Below, in pieces: positions 3,816 to 34,769 of a DNA stretch of 64,000 nt. Origin of the DNA: Roseomonas populi. GTDB lineage: Bacteria > Pseudomonadota > Alphaproteobacteria > Acetobacterales > Acetobacteraceae. Position numbers and translations under genes: made by a program. A model generated the notes under the pieces. It saw only the letters and a program-made list of their open reading frames with translations. It was not told the DNA's origin and did no database searches. The stretch's first letter is position 1; the number at the start of each line of letters is the position of its first letter. Location: contig NZ_JANJOU010000007.1 in the NCBI RefSeq assembly GCF_024594815.1, positions 1 through 64,000 on the forward strand. Direction: 5' to 3'.

Positions 3816-4823
3816 TCAGCCCTGGCGGAGGTTGCGGTGAACCTCCTCCATCACCGTGAAGTCGCAGAAGCGCTCCACCGGCGGAAGGTTGGTGCGGCCG
3901 GTGGCGCGCACCGCGTCCATCATCGGCCCCTCCAGCACCGCGCGGTCGAGGCTGAGCAGCGGCGCGCTCGCGTTCTCCGGCGACTGCAGGAAGGAGTTCT
4001 GCACCGTGTTCTGCCGGGTCTGCTGGTCCAGGTCGAGGCCGAGGTCGCGCCCGTAGGTGCGCACCGCCAGCCGCGCGCCCACCGCCGGGTCCTTGTTCTC
4101 CGCCCAGCCGCGCGTGACGCCGGAGAGGAACTTCACGACCGTCGCGCGCTCCGCCTCAAGGTACCGGCGCGTGGTGAAGACCATGCTGGCGTAGGAACGG
4201 AACTTCATGGAATCGAAGGAGGCGAAGAGGAAGTCCTTCCCGCGCGTCATCCCCATCTTCTCCAGGGTGATGACCTGGTTCGTCTCGAAGGCCGTGTAGC
4301 CGTCGCCGGCGCGGGCCAGCAGCGGCTCCGGCGAGAAGCCGGCGGGCACGAACTCCGGCCCGGAGGGCAGGTTGTTCAGCTTCACCACCGCGTCCAGCGC
4401 GGTGCGCTCGTTCGGGCCCTGGACCAGCATCTTCTTGCCCGGCAGGTCCGCTGCCGTGCGGATCGGCTTGCCCGGCAGGGAGAGGATGCCCAGCGGCGAG
4501 CGCTGGAACACGGCCGCCAGCAGGACGAAGTCGTTCCCGCGCGACACGGCGTCGAGGAAGGGCAGGAGCTGCGTCTCGCCCATCTCCGCGCCGCCGCCCG
4601 CCACAGTCACGGCGGAGGCCGGCGCGTTCGGGCCGCCCTGCACCCAGCCGAACTCCTCCCCCTTCAGCCAGCCGCGGTCCAGCGCGATCCAGAGCCCGGC
4701 GTACTGGACGTTCGGGATCCAGGTCATGGCGAAGCGCGCCGGCCGCGCCTGCGCGCGCGCCAGGCGGGGCAGGGCCAGCACCGCAGGGGCGGCGAGGAGG
4801 AGGCGGCGGGGGAGGTGGGTCAT
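3816..4823 (-). CDS. ABC transporter substrate-binding protein, NMT1/THI5-like
   Basis: This is a periplasmic binding protein of about 335 residues with an N-terminal signal peptide (cleavage near LARAQA). The mature N-terminus FAMTWIPNVQYAGLWIA matches the NMT1/THI5 family, whose members bind hydroxymethylpyrimidine precursors, riboflavin or related heterocycles. The ATG is preceded by AGGAAG at about eight bases; the much longer open frame upstream lies inside gltX and was rejected. It starts 54 bases after the gltX stop on the same strand, so read-through from gltX is possible. Together with the downstream hydrolase, ATPase and permeases it forms a complete importer, probably for a pyrimidine-like ligand (inference). 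Confidence 0.85.
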   Translation of the reverse strand: MTHLPRRLLLAAPAVLALPRLARAQARPARFAMTWIPNVQYAGLWIALDRGWLKGEEFGWVQGGPNAPASAVTVAGGGAEMGETQLLPFLDAVSRGNDFVLLAAVFQRSPLGILSLPGKPIRTAADLPGKKMLVQGPNERTALDAVVKLNNLPSGPEFVPAGFSPEPLLARAGDGYTAFETNQVITLEKMGMTRGKDFLFASFDSMKFRSYASMVFTTRRYLEAERATVVKFLSGVTRGWAENKDPAVGARLAVRTYGRDLGLDLDQQTRQNTVQNSFLQSPENASAPLLSLDRAVLEGPMMDAVRATGRTNLPPVERFCDFTVMEEVHRNLRQG

Positions 4824-4876: not shown

Positions 4877-6283
4877 TCAGCCCCCGACAAGCGTGACGCC
4901 TTCTGCGGCATCGCCGATCCGGGCGAGGCTCTCCTCCTTGCCCAGCGCGGCCAGCACGGCATCGATCGGGGGAGATTGCAGGCTGCCCGTCAGCGCCGCG
5001 CGCAGCGGCTGGGCCACCTGCCCGAGCTTCACGCCTTCCGCCTCCGCGAAGGCGCGCAGCGCGGCGTCCAGCCCCGCGCGGGCCCAATCCGTGCCGGACA
5101 GGGCCTTGGAGAGGCGGGCGAGACGGTCGCGCACGTCCGGGTGGTCCAGCGCCTCGGCGGCCTTGGGCTCGTACTTCAGCGGCCGCTCGGCCAGGGCGAA
5201 GCGGGCGCCGTCCGCCATCTCCACCAGGGTGCGCGCGCGGGGCTGGAGATCGGGGATCAGGGCGGCCACGCGGGCGCGCTGCTCCTCCGTCACCTCGCCC
5301 AACCGCCCCAGCACCGGCGCCAGCAGCGCGTCCGGCGCGGCCGCGCGGATATACTGGCCATTCAGGTGCGACAGCTTGGCATAGTCCATGCGGGAGGCGG
5401 CGCGGCCGACATCCTTCAGCTCGAACAGCTCGATCGCGCGCTCGCGCGGCACGAACTCCTCGTCCCCGTGGCCCCAGCCCAGCCGCAGCAGGTAGTTGCA
5501 CACGGCCTCCGGCAGGAAGCCCTGGTCGCGGAACTCCAGCGCGCCCACCGCGCCATGGCGCTTGGAGAGCTTGGCGCCGTCGGCGCCGTGGATCAGCGGG
5601 ATATGGGCGAAGGCCGGCCGCTCCCACCCCATGGCGTCATAGACCATGATCTGGCGGAAGGTGTTCGTCAGGTGGTCGTCGCCGCGGATCACGTGGGTGA
5701 TGGCCATGTCGTGGTCGTCCACCACCACGGCGTGCAGGTAGGTCGGCGTGCCATCGGAGCGGAGGATGATCATGTCGTCCAGTTCGCTGTTCTGCACGCG
5801 CACCTCGCCCTGGACGAGGTCGTTCACCACCGTCTCGCCCTCGCGCGGGGCCTTGATGCGGATCACGGGGTTCACGCCCGCCGGGGCCTCTGCGGGATCG
5901 CGGTCGCGCCAGTTGCCGTCGTAGCGCGGCGGCCGGCCCTCCGCCTGGGCGCGCTCCCGCATCGCTACCAGCTCCTCGGCGGTGTCGTAGGCCTGGTAGG
6001 CCTTGCCCTCGGCGAGGAGCTGGCGCGCGACCTCCGCGTGCCGCGCCTCGCGCGAGGTCTGCATCACAGGCTCCTCGTCCGGGTTCAGGCCCAGCCAGTC
6101 GAGGCTGTCCTTGATCTGCTGCACCGCTTCCGGCGTGGAGCGGGCGCGGTCCGTGTCCTCGATCCGCAGCAGGTACTGCCCGCCGTGATGGCGCGCGAAG
6201 AGGTAGTTGAAGAGCGCGGTCCGGGCCCCGCCGATATGCAGGTACCCGGTGGGGGAGGGGGCGAAGCGCGTGCGGACGTTCAT
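4877..6283 (-). CDS. gltX: Glutamate--tRNA ligase
   Basis: This class Ib aminoacyl-tRNA synthetase of 468 residues charges tRNA-Glu in the cytosol. The HIGH-type signature is PSPTGYLHIGGARTA (HIGG at about residues 16-19), followed by LLRIEDTDRAR. The KMSKS-type loop is KLSKRHGA at about residues 238-245. The C-terminal anticodon-binding part is helical. Length and motifs are normal for bacterial GluRS. Many alphaproteobacteria carry a second gltX copy that charges tRNA-Gln; which of the two this is cannot be told from the window. It is divergent from comEC across a 68-base gap. Confidence 0.97.
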   Translation of the reverse strand: MNVRTRFAPSPTGYLHIGGARTALFNYLFARHHGGQYLLRIEDTDRARSTPEAVQQIKDSLDWLGLNPDEEPVMQTSREARHAEVARQLLAEGKAYQAYDTAEELVAMRERAQAEGRPPRYDGNWRDRDPAEAPAGVNPVIRIKAPREGETVVNDLVQGEVRVQNSELDDMIILRSDGTPTYLHAVVVDDHDMAITHVIRGDDHLTNTFRQIMVYDAMGWERPAFAHIPLIHGADGAKLSKRHGAVGALEFRDQGFLPEAVCNYLLRLGWGHGDEEFVPRERAIELFELKDVGRAASRMDYAKLSHLNGQYIRAAAPDALLAPVLGRLGEVTEEQRARVAALIPDLQPRARTLVEMADGARFALAERPLKYEPKAAEALDHPDVRDRLARLSKALSGTDWARAGLDAALRAFAEAEGVKLGQVAQPLRAALTGSLQSPPIDAVLAALGKEESLARIGDAAEGVTLVGG

Positions 6284-6351
6284 CTCGCCCCCTTAACACC
6301 GCGCATCCGGCCTGTTCAGCCCCTCACGCATTCGCGATCAGCCGGTCTAGC

Positions 6352-8556
6352 ATGTCGTCCCGAATGTCCGCCCCGATTCCGATCCCTGCCGGCCCGGTCC
6401 TGATCACCACGCCCACCGTCGCCCTCTCCGAGCGCGCATGGGGTTGGGTCGCGGCGGAATGGGACCGCTGGCCCCTCTGGTTGCCCGTCGTCATGGGCAT
6501 CGGGGTGCTGGCCTACTTCGCCCTCCTGGCGGAGCCGAACCCCTTCTGGGCCGTCCTTCCCTTGCCGCTCCTCGGGGCGGCGCTTCTCCTGCGTGGGCGG
6601 CGGCCCCTGGCGGCGGCGGCCCTGGCCCTGATCGGCGCCGCGGCACTCGGCTTCGCCGTTGCCCTCCTCCACGCCCGCTGGGCGCCGCCCATGCCGGACC
6701 TGCCGCGCAACGCCGCCATCATCACCGGCCGGGTCGTCAGCCTGGACCTGCTGCCGGACGGCCGGCGCGTGACGCTGGAGGCCCCGCGCATCAACGAAGG
6801 CAACCCGCTGGACCGGCAGATCCGCGTCCGTCTTCGCGCCAACGATCCGACGCCGGTCGCACCCGGGGACACGGTGTCCCTCCGCGCCCTGGTGCGCCCG
6901 CCCATGCCGCCCGCCTATCCCGGTGCCTTCGACATGCAGCGCAACGCCTATTTCTCCGGGCTCGGCGGGTCCGGCTTCGCGCTGAACGTGGCGAATATCC
7001 TGGAGCGGCGCGACCCGCCCCTCTTCGCCGGCCTGCGTGCCTCCATCGAGGCCCGGATCACCGCCGCCCTGCCCGGAGCCACCGGCGCAGTGGCCTCCGC
7101 CCTGCTCACCGGATCGCAGTCCGGCATCCCCGCGCCGACCATCGCGGCGCTGCGCGATTCGGGGCTGGCGCACCTTCTCTCCGTCTCCGGGCTGCACGTG
7201 GCGATCGTGATCGGGATTGGCTTCACCCTCTCCCGCCTCGCCATCGCCGCGATCCCCTGGCTGGCGCTGCGGATCGATTCGAAGGGCGGGGCGGCACTGG
7301 TCGGGCTGGCGCTGGGGGCGGTGTACACGCTGCTCACCGGCTCCGGCGTGCCGATGCTGCGCTCGTTCGCCATGGCGGCCCTCGCCACGCTGGCGATCCT
7401 GACAGGGCGGCGAGCCCTCTCCCTCCGCGCGCTGGCCCTGGCCGCGGGGGTGGTGATCCTGCTGAACCCGGCCGCGCTCACCGGGCCCTCCTTCCAGATG
7501 TCCTTCGCCGCCGTCCTCGCCCTGGTCGGGCTAGCGGCGGCGATGCGCGGCCCCGTGCAGGGACTAAAAAGCCTTGGATGGCAGGGGAGGCTGGCGGCGG
7601 CGGTGCTTGGGCTTGCCGCCACCTCCATCATCGCCGGCGCGGCCACCACGCCCTATGGCCTGCACCACTTCGGGCGGCTCCAGCTCTACGGCGTGGCGGC
7701 GAACGCGGTGGCGGTGCCGCTCACCTCCTTCCTCGTCATGCCGGCCGGGCTGATGGCGGTCTTCCTCATGCCTTTCGGGCTGGAAGGGCCGGCCCTGGCG
7801 GCCATGGGCTGGGGGGTGGACGGCACGATCCTCACCGGGCGCGTCGTCGCTTCCTGGCCGGGCGCGGCGCTGACGGCACCGCCGATCCCGGCCTGGGGGC
7901 TGGGCCTTTTTACCCTCGGCCTGTGCTGGGTGCTGCTCTGGCGCCTGCCGTGGCGCTGGGCGGGGGTGCCGGCGATGGCGGCGGGGCTTCTCTCCGGCCT
8001 CGCCGCCAACCCGCCCGACCTGCTGGTGGCGGCGGATGGCCGGATGCTGGCCTTGGCAACGCCTGGCGGCGTCCTGGTGGAGCGGGCCTCCGGCGCCAAC
8101 CGCCTGATCCGCGAATCATGGCTGCGCGGCTGGGGAGAGGACGATGCCGCGCCCCTTCCGCGAGAGGGCGAGACGCCGGGCGCCGAATGCTCGCCTCTGT
8201 CCTGCCTGCTACGCCCGCGCGCGGATGGCGCGGCGGCCATCTTCCTCCGCCAGCCGCCGCGCGAGCCCCGACCGCGTCGCGGCCCGGCCCCGCCACCCCC
8301 GGCCGTCTATGCGGAGACGGGCTGCGGCAAGGCGGCGGTGATGGTGTCGCTGGAACCTATCCGCGGCCGTTGCCGCGAGACGCCGCGCGTGGACCGCTTC
8401 TCCGTGTGGCGGGACGGAGCCCACGCCATCTGGCTGGGGCGGGACGGTGCAACGATCCTCTCGGACCGTGCCAGCCGCGGGGCGCGGCCCTGGGTGCCAC
8501 CCGTGCCAACGCCCCGGGCCCAGCCGCAGGAGGAACCGCCGGCAGAGACCGAGTAG
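6352..8556 (+). CDS. comEC: ComEC/Rec2-family DNA uptake channel protein
   Basis: This is a polytopic membrane protein of about 734 residues. It has two early transmembrane helices, a DUF4131-like segment (roughly residues 120-210), then the competence domain with the diagnostic LLSVSGLHVAI and ALLTGSQSGIP motifs and about ten hydrophobic helices. Family members form the inner-membrane channel that takes up single-stranded DNA during transformation. The C-terminal 200 residues are hydrophilic and lack the HxHxDH metallo-beta-lactamase motif found in longer family members. Gene order next to gltX is common in this class. It ends two bases before the tyrS stop on the other strand. Confidence 0.9.
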   Translation: MSSRMSAPIPIPAGPVLITTPTVALSERAWGWVAAEWDRWPLWLPVVMGIGVLAYFALLAEPNPFWAVLPLPLLGAALLLRGRRPLAAAALALIGAAALGFAVALLHARWAPPMPDLPRNAAIITGRVVSLDLLPDGRRVTLEAPRINEGNPLDRQIRVRLRANDPTPVAPGDTVSLRALVRPPMPPAYPGAFDMQRNAYFSGLGGSGFALNVANILERRDPPLFAGLRASIEARITAALPGATGAVASALLTGSQSGIPAPTIAALRDSGLAHLLSVSGLHVAIVIGIGFTLSRLAIAAIPWLALRIDSKGGAALVGLALGAVYTLLTGSGVPMLRSFAMAALATLAILTGRRALSLRALALAAGVVILLNPAALTGPSFQMSFAAVLALVGLAAAMRGPVQGLKSLGWQGRLAAAVLGLAATSIIAGAATTPYGLHHFGRLQLYGVAANAVAVPLTSFLVMPAGLMAVFLMPFGLEGPALAAMGWGVDGTILTGRVVASWPGAALTAPPIPAWGLGLFTLGLCWVLLWRLPWRWAGVPAMAAGLLSGLAANPPDLLVAADGRMLALATPGGVLVERASGANRLIRESWLRGWGEDDAAPLPREGETPGAECSPLSCLLRPRADGAAAIFLRQPPREPRPRRGPAPPPPAVYAETGCGKAAVMVSLEPIRGRCRETPRVDRFSVWRDGAHAIWLGRDGATILSDRASRGARPWVPPVPTPRAQPQEEPPAETE

Positions 8557-32076: not shown

Positions 32077-32127
32077 GCCTGGCGGGTTTGTCGTTGCATG
32101 GAAGTCACAGGCACGAGTTCGCTCTAC

Positions 32128-32170
32128 GAAACGTAACGGCATCAGATAGGAAATTCTCGCGGAAACGTTA
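32128..32170 (+). promoter_or_regulatory. Direct repeats upstream of the lipoprotein operon
   Basis: GAAACGTAA (32128-32136) and GAAACGTTA (32162-32170) recur with a 34-base period in an A/T-richer stretch ahead of the first lipoprotein gene. They may be regulator sites or part of promoter DNA. No consensus is recognised. Confidence 0.35.
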
Positions 32171-32178
32171 GAACGCTG

Positions 32179-32201
32179 TTGCCGGGTCTGCTGCCCGGCA
32201 A
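32179..32201 (+). promoter_or_regulatory. Leader hairpin just before the first lipoprotein gene
   Basis: TTGCCGGG and CCCGGCAA form a perfect eight-base-pair stem with a seven-base loop. It is followed at once by the GGGGG ribosome-binding site and, 12 bases later, the ATG at 32214. With no T run it looks like a 5' leader structure rather than a terminator. Confidence 0.45.
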
Positions 32202-32213
32202 GGGGGCACTCGA

Positions 32214-32780
32214 ATGATTCTCAGGAGGTTCCGGCGCGTCGGGGTCGTCGTCGCGCCGGTAATGATGACGACGCTGCTCGCTGGGTGCGTGAATCACAAC
32301 CAGATTGCGATGGAAGTTGGAGCGCCGCCGAAGGATGCGGCTCAGCTCCGCGAAATGCAAACGGCACGTTTTGATGCTGCAGATGAGGTTGTTTTGCTGA
32401 CCGAGGCGACGCAGGTCCTGCAGGATCTCGGCTTCGGAGTGGCGGAGAGCGCGCCGCAGGTGGGCGTACTCACCGGCAGCAAGTCGCGGGACGCGACGGA
32501 GGCAGGCGAGGTGGCGGCCCAAATCGCGCTGACCGTTGTCGCAGCGGCGTTCCTCGTCGCCTATGTGCCGACCTGGGATACCAATCAGGTCATCCGGGTG
32601 ACTCTTGTTTCCCAACCGGTGCCGCAAAGCCGGCAGACTCAACTCCGTGCCTCGTTCGAGCGCCTCGTGGCCAACAACAAGGGCCAGATCCGCGTCGAGC
32701 CCCTGCAGCAGCCCGAGATGCACCAGGAATTCTTCAAAATGCTTCGGAACGGAATGGCCATGCGGGAGAACCGCACGTGA
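32214..32780 (+). CDS. Lipoprotein of unknown family, long subtype (gene 1 of 5)
   Basis: I do not recognise this 188-residue lipoprotein. The lipobox is LLAG-C25; residue +2 is Val, so sorting to the outer membrane is expected. The core begins REMQTARFDAADEV and includes the array's signature VLQDLGFGV, then LTGSKSRDATEAGEVA, a strongly hydrophobic run (IALTVVAAAFLVAY, about residues 105-122), and a last block with FERLV and EMHQEFFKML. The same order recurs in the gene at 33714. It is preceded by a hairpin and AGGGGG. Its stop overlaps the GTG of the next gene. GC content is visibly lower than in flanking genes. Confidence 0.85.
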   Translation: MILRRFRRVGVVVAPVMMTTLLAGCVNHNQIAMEVGAPPKDAAQLREMQTARFDAADEVVLLTEATQVLQDLGFGVAESAPQVGVLTGSKSRDATEAGEVAAQIALTVVAAAFLVAYVPTWDTNQVIRVTLVSQPVPQSRQTQLRASFERLVANNKGQIRVEPLQQPEMHQEFFKMLRNGMAMRENRT

Positions 32781-33304
32781 GCTTGCGCCTCGTCGTGCTT
32801 CTCGGGCCCCTTCTGCTCGGCGCATGCGCCGTCCAGCAGGAGCGGCAGTTCCAGGCCAGTGACAAGAGCTCGGTGGAGATGCGGGCGATGCAGTCGCGCA
32901 TCATCGACGGCGATGCACCCACCGTGACGCGGGGCGTCGTCGCTACGCTGCAGGACCTTGGCTACCGCATCAACAAGGCTGAACCTGCGGCCGGCAGCAT
33001 CACGGCCACTAAGCTAGAGCGGCTGCGCCTCACGGCGGTAGTCCGGCCCGTCGACAGCAACCGGGCTGCCGTGCGGGCGAACGCGGTTGTTGTCCTGCCC
33101 CAGACCGAAAATCAGGTCGATGATCCGCAATTCTACCAGCAGAACTTCTTCGCCCCGCTCTCGACCACACTCGGGCGCGAGGCTTTCGCTGCCCCGGCAG
33201 ACACCCAGGTTCCCGACGCGGCTGTTCCCCGGGTAACCTCGGACCTACCCGGTGGCGGCCCCGCTCCTGGTGGCCAGGGCCGGCAGGAGACCGCCCGGCG
33301 ATGA
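32777..33304 (+). CDS. Lipoprotein of unknown family, short subtype (gene 2 of 5)
   Basis: This lipoprotein of 175 residues has lipobox LLGA-C17. It carries the array core RAMQSRIIDGD...VVATLQDLGYRI, followed by SITATKLERLRLTAVVRPV and FYQQNFFAPL. It lacks the DATEAG segment and hydrophobic insert of gene 1. After residue about 135 it has a Pro/Gly/Gln-rich, probably disordered tail that its sister at 34261 does not have. The start is GTG, overlapping the upstream stop (GTGA); the stop overlaps the next ATG (ATGA). Function is unknown. Confidence 0.82.
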   Translation: MSLRLVVLLGPLLLGACAVQQERQFQASDKSSVEMRAMQSRIIDGDAPTVTRGVVATLQDLGYRINKAEPAAGSITATKLERLRLTAVVRPVDSNRAAVRANAVVVLPQTENQVDDPQFYQQNFFAPLSTTLGREAFAAPADTQVPDAAVPRVTSDLPGGGPAPGGQGRQETARR

Positions 33305-33705
33305 TCCGACCGATTCTCATCCTTGCCGGGCTGCTGGCTGGCTGCGCGACGGCCGGTGATCATGCGGCTCAGGTTGGCGCGGGCGGCGCGACCGACGAGC
33401 GGCTGGCCCTGGGTACGGTTCAGCGCCAGATCCGCATTGGCATGACGAACGCCGAAGTGGTCGCCGTACTCGGCGCTCCGAACATGGTAACGACCGATGA
33501 TCGGCGGCGTGAGAACTGGGTCTATGACCGGGTTTCCAGCGAAAGCGCCTACTCGTCAGGGGCCGCCGGTGCGAATGTGCTCTTCCTCGGGGCCGTCTCC
33601 TCGTCGGGCGCGTCGCGGCGCTCGCAGCGCACCCTGACCATCATCATCCGCTACGACGAGGGTGGGCGCGTGCGGGACTTCAGCTACCGCTCGAGCAGCT
33701 TCTGA
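33301..33705 (+). CDS. SmpA/OmlA (BamE-like) lipoprotein (gene 3 of 5)
   Basis: This lipoprotein of 134 residues has lipobox LLAG-C15. The SmpA/OmlA fold is indicated by QIRIGMTNAEVVAVLGAPN, ENWVYDR, and a closing strand TLTIIIRYDEGGRVRDFSY. BamE belongs to this fold, but a similar domain occurs in many lipoproteins; the Ser/Gly/Ala-rich loop between the strands (about residues 80-108) is not typical of BamE. It sits in the middle of the paralogous array and overlaps the upstream gene. The chromosomal bamE is usually elsewhere, so this is more likely an accessory paralogue. Confidence 0.85.
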   Translation: MIRPILILAGLLAGCATAGDHAAQVGAGGATDERLALGTVQRQIRIGMTNAEVVAVLGAPNMVTTDDRRRENWVYDRVSSESAYSSGAAGANVLFLGAVSSSGASRRSQRTLTIIIRYDEGGRVRDFSYRSSSF

Positions 33706-33713
33706 GACGGCCC

Positions 33714-34271
33714 ATGCGGCGACGTGCCATCATCGAGTCGGGCCTGTTCGCGTCTTTAGCCGGCCTTGCGGCATGCCAAAGCAAGGAGGAGGTCCACGCC
33801 AACGCGCTCACGCCCTCTTCTTCCGTGGTGTCGCAGCGCGTCCTGCAGACGCGACGGTTCGACACGCGCGACGATACGGTGCTGATGCAGGCCGCCATTG
33901 GGGTGCTCCAGGACCTCGGTTTCATTATCGAGGAGAGCCGGGCGCAGGCTGGCCTCGTCACCGGGATCAAGGAGCGCGACGCCACAGAGGCAGGACAGGT
34001 AGCGGGCCAGCTGCTGCTCGTTCTTCTTGCCGCGGCGGCCCGCACCCAGCACCGCGTGGTCATGGACCGGGATCAGGTCATCCGTGCCCAGGTCGTCGTA
34101 AGGTCCGTGCCGGACCGCTCGGGTATGCTGGCCCGCGTCACCTTCCAGCGGCTCGTTCGGAACACGGACGGGCAGGTGAGCCGCCTGGAGACCATCGAGG
34201 ACCCGGAACTCTACAAGGGGTTCTTCAACCAACTCGCCCAGTCCACCTTCCTGGCGGCCCATGAGATCTAG
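33714..34271 (+). CDS. Lipoprotein of unknown family, long subtype (gene 4 of 5)
   Basis: This lipoprotein of 185 residues has lipobox GLAA-C21. It matches gene 1 along its length: RVLQTRRFDTRDDTV, GVLQDLGFIIEES, VTGIKERDATEAGQVAGQ, a hydrophobic run LLLVLLAAAA, DQVIRAQVVVRSVP, FQRLVRNTDGQV and ELYKGFFNQL. The hydrophobic run is interrupted earlier than in gene 1 by RTQHR. It begins eight bases after gene 3, and its stop lies inside the first codons of gene 5 (11-base overlap). Function is unknown; it is clearly a paralogue. Confidence 0.85.
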   Translation: MRRRAIIESGLFASLAGLAACQSKEEVHANALTPSSSVVSQRVLQTRRFDTRDDTVLMQAAIGVLQDLGFIIEESRAQAGLVTGIKERDATEAGQVAGQLLLVLLAAAARTQHRVVMDRDQVIRAQVVVRSVPDRSGMLARVTFQRLVRNTDGQVSRLETIEDPELYKGFFNQLAQSTFLAAHEI

Positions 34272-34683
34272 CCTTCTCCTCACCCTCGCCGCGGCGGCCT
34301 TCGCAGTGCCGGGATGCCAGATGGACAGCCGGCAACAAGTCCTGGCCACTGCAAACACTCAGGTGGCCCAGCGCGCCATCTCCACCCGTGTCTTTGACAC
34401 GGCGGACCGGTCTGCCGTCTTCCGCGGCATCATCGCCACTTTTCAGGACCTCGGCTTTGTCGTGGATCGGGCGGATGATGTCCTGGGAACGATCAGCGGC
34501 ACGCAACTGCAGAACGGGATCGTGCGCCTCACCGTCACAGTACGGCCGATTTCCGGGCAGCGGGTTCTCGTGCGCGCTTCCGGGCAGCACAACCTCGATG
34601 CCTTGACCGACCCCGTGCCGTTCCAGCGGTTCTTCGACGCGCTTGCCCAGGCTCTCTTCCTGACTGCCAATCAGGTCGATTAG
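34261..34683 (+). CDS. Lipoprotein of unknown family, short subtype (gene 5 of 5)
   Basis: This lipoprotein of 140 residues has a weak lipobox (AVPG-C19, with proline at -2). It matches gene 2: RAISTRVFDTADRS, IIATFQDLGFVV, TISGTQLQNGIVRLTVTVRPI and FQRFFDALAQ. It contains nothing beyond the shared domain and so gives the minimal form. It overlaps gene 4 by 11 bases. The Bug-type binding-protein gene starts 86 bases downstream; a small GGCGC/GCGCC hairpin in that gap is too weak to call. Confidence 0.82.
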   Translation: MRSSLLLTLAAAAFAVPGCQMDSRQQVLATANTQVAQRAISTRVFDTADRSAVFRGIIATFQDLGFVVDRADDVLGTISGTQLQNGIVRLTVTVRPISGQRVLVRASGQHNLDALTDPVPFQRFFDALAQALFLTANQVD

Positions 34684-34769
34684 CGACCGAAGAGCGGCAT
34701 GGGGATTGCAGGTCCGTAACGTGACGCGGCGCCCCGCCCCGGAGCGCCAGCCGTGACGAAGGACCGCCC

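Follow-up and report, generated by a model that had tools for sequence, protein, structure and literature searches.

A conserved cassette of predicted outer-membrane lipoproteins with BamC-type and BamE-like folds

The lipoprotein gene array of Roseomonas populi

The DNA analysed here, referred to as the window, is a stretch of 64,000 nucleotides from the soil bacterium Roseomonas populi. Between positions 32214 and 34683, its list of open reading frames (ORFs) holds five plus-strand genes. Four of them are paralogues, and the third gene of the row encodes a lipoprotein with a BamE domain. We call this array, together with its relatives in other genomes, the cassette. A preliminary description of this DNA had reported five lipoprotein genes here, and their positions and the lipobox in each of the five proteins are as it gave them. 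Its observation is confirmed and concerns something larger than was then seen; its interpretation is supported in part.

The paralogues fall into two classes, a long class (L) with a hydrophobic insert and a short class (S) without it. The features of the array are as follows (pLDDT, predicted local distance difference test).

32214-32780, plus strand: long1, 188 amino acids, lipid-bearing Cys25, predicted BamC-type domain with hydrophobic insert (ORF, alignment, tree)
32502-32552, plus strand: hydrophobic insert of long1, placed via alignment to the modelled long2 helix; hydropathy peak
32777-33304, plus strand: short1, 175 amino acids, an insert-free version of the domain of long1, with a Pro/Gly-rich C-terminal tail (ORF, alignment, tree)
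33301-33705, plus strand: BamE-domain lipoprotein, 134 amino acids, lipid-bearing Cys15
33714-34271, plus strand: long2, 185 amino acids, lipid-bearing Cys21, predicted BamC-type domain with hydrophobic insert (model, Foldseek, profile match)
33990-34040, plus strand: insert helix of long2, mature residues 73-89 (DSSP of the model; block pLDDT 68 and 81, lower than in the core)
34261-34683, plus strand: short2, 140 amino acids, core domain only (ORF, alignment; kinship with the long class from profile comparison)
32088-34693, plus strand: stretch of about 2.6 kb absent from the same site in the related genome G014 (blastn bounds; nearly equal in G012)

The genes overlap or nearly touch, as had been noted. 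Three junctions in the window are overlaps of 4, 4 and 11 bp and one is a gap of 8 bp; across the loci collected below, the median gap is -4 bp between neighbouring paralogues and 13 bp from the BamE gene to the next gene. The residues at position +2 after the lipid-bearing cysteine are V, A, A, Q and Q. A lipobox is present in 271 of 283 cassette proteins, and none of these 271 has Asp at +2, which agrees with the outer-membrane sorting predicted at the outset. The +2 Asp sorting rule is a rule of enterobacteria.

The GC content at third codon positions is 0.77-0.84 in the array genes versus 0.88-0.94 in six neighbours. In the host's own genome, no further paralogue copies were found at E ≤ 0.001, and weaker matches, from 0.075 upwards, look like chance. 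Two antisense open frames cross the array on the minus strand (32142-32825, 227 amino acids, and 33756-34358, 200 amino acids); such frames are expected in GC-rich DNA and were not counted as genes.

BamC-type and BamE-like domains

The alignment of the four window paralogues has 16 invariant columns, QDLG and FF..L among them. In a profile-profile comparison the long and short classes match at 100% over 141 columns, so their resemblance is not due to chance and the two form one family, as the preliminary description had held. The motifs that it listed are approximate: the first segment reads TARFD, SRIID, TRRFD and TRVFD, and the closing stretch of long1 is MHQEFFKML.

The same description had called the domain unrecognised. 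This part does not stand, as known relatives exist, found by profile and by fold. The model of mature long2 (165 residues, pLDDT 90.7) is a single domain with a helix-grip fold, and the top 11 matches of a Foldseek search with it are all BamC. The BamC N-domain was matched at 78.6% in profile comparison (listed for long2), and none of 84 decoys reached 50%. Reversal of one profile gave 0.3 and 0.7%; the 63.6% obtained with both profiles reversed arises because this is the same alignment read backwards. Judged by profile and predicted structure, an assignment of the paralogue domain to the BamC N-domain (helix-grip) type is well supported, the short class being assigned through its homology with the long one.

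Several results count against a close tie to BamC. The Foldseek template modelling scores (TM-scores) to BamC are modest, at 0.35-0.44 by query length, and the fold alone is unspecific: a plant protein, Flpp3 and a KA1 domain equal BamC by Z. The short profile on its own matches the BamC N-domain at 18.5%, and the BamC C-domain is matched at about 1% by both classes. The decoy profiles are shallow (3-12 neighbour ORFs each) and may include antisense frames. Moreover, a BamD-binding lasso is lacking: the first core strand of long2 begins about 25 residues past the lipid-bearing cysteine, whereas in 22 BamC matches the N-domain is preceded by a median of 65 matched residues. As for Flpp3, a Francisella lipoprotein whose family we take to be DUF3568, the profile match was 0.1%, in a weak test based on script-picked stop-free frames from twelve loci, one of them empty and at least two (L235 and L238) looking like wrong frames or unrelated proteins.

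Searches against family models were negative for the paralogues. None of the four window proteins matched a Pfam or NCBIfam model above its cut-off, nor PF06804 (Lipoprotein_18) at E ≤ 1, and PF06804 was absent among the 25 of 29 families listed for 78 short proteins and the 25 of 26 listed for 90 long proteins (E ≤ 0.1). When the paralogue profiles were searched against PDB sequences, no match fell below E 0.04, and all matches were of unrelated kinds. DUF4995 (Pfam) was weakly matched by 11 of 78 short proteins (best 2.4e-5).

The cassette is built like BAM (barrel assembly machinery) accessory subunits without containing a member of the BamC family, because its paralogues have one domain, no Pfam match and no room for a BamD-binding lasso. 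With BamC (NlpB, PF06804) they have in common the helix-grip fold of the N-domain, seen in the long2 model. Whereas BamC has two domains and a long N-terminal lasso, the cassette paralogues have one domain and no such lasso; their long class bears a hydrophobic insert, they lie below Pfam detection, and their range extends beyond beta- and gamma-proteobacteria and includes mobile elements. A recent review describes BamC as the most mysterious BAM lipoprotein and as restricted to beta- and gamma-proteobacteria (PMC13067283).

The protein encoded at 33301 had been described as of the BamE/SmpA type, and this is borne out. Its Pfam BamE match scores 23.7 bits, barely over the cut-off of 23.2, and all 68 cassette orthologues scanned match BamE at E ≤ 0.01. 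Its model has a mean pLDDT of 80.0, with values of at least 90 at 56 of 134 residues, and the top 12 rows of the fold search are chain E of BAM entries, which we take as BamE, with OsmE (8.6) and others close behind. By sequence and predicted fold, the BamE-like nature of this fifth protein is well supported. A Gly/Ser-rich loop of very variable length lies between the strands of the BamE fold (residues 86-103, window 33556-33609), unlike in BamE (SmpA, PF04355), and BamC-type genes are adjacent. Identity to the window's protein is 38-67% over 67 orthologues. Identity between the host's own BamE and the cassette BamEs is about 21-33% (every eighth of the 68 orthologues).

Gene order, spread and mobile elements

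To compare gene order, a single genome from each species was scanned using the paralogue profile; of 168 relatives, the best 80 gave 78 distinct loci, so the counts favour closer relatives. The sample is uneven, and the loci, many of them labelled as metagenome assemblies, belong by their record titles to Pseudomonadota, delta-proteobacteria, Planctomycetota, Verrucomicrobia, Nitrospirae and others. We counted 81 loci, comprising 77 of the 78 together with the window, L026, L027 and L028; L031 was dropped as the same locus as L026. The order BamE-long-short occurs in 54 loci and long-short-BamE-long-short in 21; two more have this five-gene order with broken or additional pieces, and BamE is lacking in four. 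Two paralogues come directly after BamE in 77 of the 78 informative loci. Among the BamE-free loci, three (L059, L090 and L095) are cut by the contig end, which lies at most about 120 bp from the long gene, and L028 has no BamE within 18 kb. Some trios may be truncated five-gene forms, as no more than about 1 kb of contig precedes BamE in L050, L064, L067, L085, L092 and L099. Script-chosen gene starts are wrong in some loci (for example short1 of L026, and L040, L043, L051 and L079).

The module is a conserved cassette whose commonest form is the trio BamE-L-S, a well-supported conclusion. The preliminary description had proposed a five-gene layout and a survey of gene order as its test. The five-gene order is kept in other genera, and the commonest unit is the trio. 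The two outcomes that it named as refuting, membership of unrelated families and an order unique to one genome, are both excluded.

Of 398 genomes drawn evenly from the phylum, 9 have a BamE-like gene and 11 have a paralogue, all 9 lying within the 11. In each of the seven genomes read, of the eight BamE-holding ones other than the host's own, BamE adjoins at least one paralogue. The plain trio is present in G372, G142 and G162, and five paralogues surround BamE in G352. The last of these genomes is 2 Mb in size and belongs to the same family as the host; its array has three paralogues and BamE on one strand, followed by a convergent long-short pair on the other (L154:5548-8461).

The long and short classes are split at 100/100 support in a tree of 120 proteins. 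In the same tree, long1 and short1 are each set apart by a single branch (support 100/100 and 100/99), and none of 500 shuffles was as low; the proteins come from 22 of the 23 five-gene loci and 16 of the 54 three-gene loci, and the bootstrap had yet to converge. The simplest account of this tree is that the five-gene form arose by one duplication of the L-S pair as a unit. The insert exceeds the hydropathy threshold in 22 of 22 long1 proteins, in 61 of 80 long2 proteins (10 of 22 in five-gene loci) and in 1 of 103 short proteins. Since within five-gene loci long1 keeps the insert in 22/22 and long2 in 10/22, a division of labour in the five-gene form is suggested.

Some loci depart from these forms. 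In L028 (8654-10085; genome G010), a diverged long-short pair stands beside a small lipoprotein gene (124 amino acids, by eye), and this arrangement may represent another, related type of cassette. Broken long or long-short genes lie in or beside cassettes at L087:5488-5819, L104:3143-3703 and L156:6040-6627.

The cassette is patchy among relatives, since paralogues were found in 5 of 60 searched (own genome counted). Roseomonas aerilata (L026/L031) has the five genes at the window's site, which is also the site in G001. In G012, G014, G006 and G010, the gamma-glutamyltransferase-type and TctC genes that flank the array in the window (the former named by eye) are adjacent and the array is absent between them; in G002, array and TctC gene are both absent at the site. 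All five of these genomes are relatives within the genus. In G032 the array sits between GMP synthase and rRNA methyltransferase genes (both by eye). No constant neighbour emerged: the top flanking families, with 25 of 144 families listed, are of the amidase type (8/81, two of them one locus) and the ABC ATPase type (7/81), both widespread kinds of enzyme. Among the 131 nearest neighbours scanned, each Pfam family is found in three at most. Pfam WYL is found in three of these 131. Related regulators, of the WYL type by eye, lie upstream of BamE on the opposite strand in L040, L041, L042, L043 and L052.

The trio also occurs on plasmids. In an 8-kb Acinetobacter plasmid, it comprises the only annotated genes (4892-6277) between two pdif-like sites (4749-4776, with 3 mismatches, and 6327-6354, with 1 mismatch). 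Four such sites were found in this plasmid versus none expected. The plasmid's paper reports a pdif module with three hypothetical proteins where the trio lies (PMC10272872). The Acinetobacter trio was unmatched in Escherichia coli. On an Azospirillum plasmid the trio adjoins an IS5 transposase, and relatives of the window paralogues on both plasmids are annotated as hypothetical proteins.

Six contigs of the IMG/VR database hold relatives, and three of them show clear phage genes. The cassette of G460 is flanked to one side by genes for a repressor, a transposase and a transposition protein, and to the other by terminase and portal genes. G459 has an integrase gene to one side and genes for tail fibre and tape measure to the other, and in G457 the cassette lies at one contig end, beside portal, head protein and integrase genes. 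On two virus contigs, an OLD-type nuclease gene lies about 1 kb from the cassette (L149:777-2579), and a methyltransferase and a type III restriction gene lie beside short in a cassette cut by the contig end (L146:608-5427). Two short proteins had no match among 50,697 deposited phage records. A known anti-phage defence system was considered and dropped, as none of the five window proteins matched a PADLOC model at E ≤ 0.1.

A possible role in outer-membrane barrel assembly

In our tentative reading, to which we give a little less than an even chance, the cassette is a transferable module of outer-membrane lipoproteins, built on BAM accessory folds, which alters the cell surface or the assembly of barrels. 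Each cassette protein would be exported, lipidated and sorted to the outer membrane. By analogy with BamE, the BamE-like subunit may act as the docking unit; BamE binds BamA POTRA-5 (polypeptide transport-associated domain 5) and BamD, and BamC-BamE contacts are reported, according to the review (PMC13067283). The long and short proteins would act as a pair of BamC-type helix-grip domains, with the insert helix of the long protein lying against or in the membrane. Such an accessory subcomplex could change the assembly or display of outer-membrane barrels, a trait useful enough for carriage by plasmids and temperate phages. A bolder version, which we consider rather unlikely, is that mobile elements carry their own BAM accessory subunits, whose subcomplex docks on the host BAM and reprograms surface barrels, the phage or plasmid thereby closing the cell to competitors or fitting the envelope to new conditions.

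A number of observations speak against a BAM-related role. The interaction of cassette proteins with BAM is argued by analogy. The host owns a separate BamE at C12 (E 2.5e-16), the only one listed in a six-frame BamE family search of its genome, in which the cassette BamE did not appear; the cassette protein is additional to the host's BamE and not its only one. BamE-like folds serve non-BAM tasks too, judging from the structure match 9uu1 and the literature. None of the long proteins reaches the insert threshold in 7 of 80 loci, and in the even draw G107, G165 (in pieces) and G400 have one detected paralogue only.

Exclusion or immunity cargo would fit the mobile settings. In this case, which we judge doubtful, the cassette would protect its carrier at the outer membrane through superinfection exclusion, with changes to phage receptors or to the way they are assembled, or its lipoproteins would confer immunity against periplasm-acting toxins of rivals. 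BamE-like folds have been described as immunity proteins in the literature, and entry 9uu1 is consistent with this. BamE-like immunity proteins, like the BamE-like domain bound to AtaA, place the BamE fold in non-BAM envelope tasks, as is possible for the cassette, but no toxin or adhesin gene recurs beside it. No neighbour recurs among the families listed, so no constant toxin partner was seen, although no search aimed at toxins was made. Moreover, the BamE-like member is well conserved (38-67%, as given above), whereas BamE-like immunity proteins are called rapidly evolving in the paper that describes them. This conservation and the lack of a constant toxin neighbour speak against immunity, and the negative PADLOC and phage-record searches also tell against exclusion or immunity cargo.

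It is improbable, in our view, that the cassette serves a particular outer-membrane barrel or peptidoglycan and not BAM, its BamE-like domain holding a client barrel scaffolded by the paralogues. The N-terminal domain of the AtaA partner appears to hold AtaA, and entry 9vnj fits such a role; however, no recurring neighbour family offers a candidate client, and BamE-type and BamC-type folds together point more simply to BAM. Independent envelope-stress lipoproteins sharing one operon but forming no complex fit worst and are very improbable, for although co-transcription alone is no proof of a complex and the host already owns a BamE, the same genes recur in the same order across many lineages, where nothing else accompanies them constantly, the L-S pair appears to have been duplicated as a unit and kept, and the unequal retention of the insert in long1 and long2 suggests a division of labour.

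Among known systems, BamF (DUF3035) of alphaproteobacteria resembles the cassette in being an extra BAM lipoprotein in a lineage without BamC. Identity with BamF was set aside on its published description, which gives a different family, a position adjoining the signal peptidase II gene and a disordered N-terminus (PMC3359395). The preliminary description knew of no system with this layout, and no account of the cassette turned up in the full-text literature searched, a body that leaves most subscription papers and preprints outside. The folds are known; neither the cassette nor its occurrence outside beta- and gamma-proteobacteria and on mobile elements appears to have been described within that literature. 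A family with the BamC fold tied to a BamE-like gene, present in alphaproteobacteria, in several other phyla according to record titles, and on plasmids and phage-like contigs, would provide an independent system for learning the roles of BamC- and BamE-type domains, and the manipulation of outer-membrane barrel assembly by mobile elements would become a testable question.
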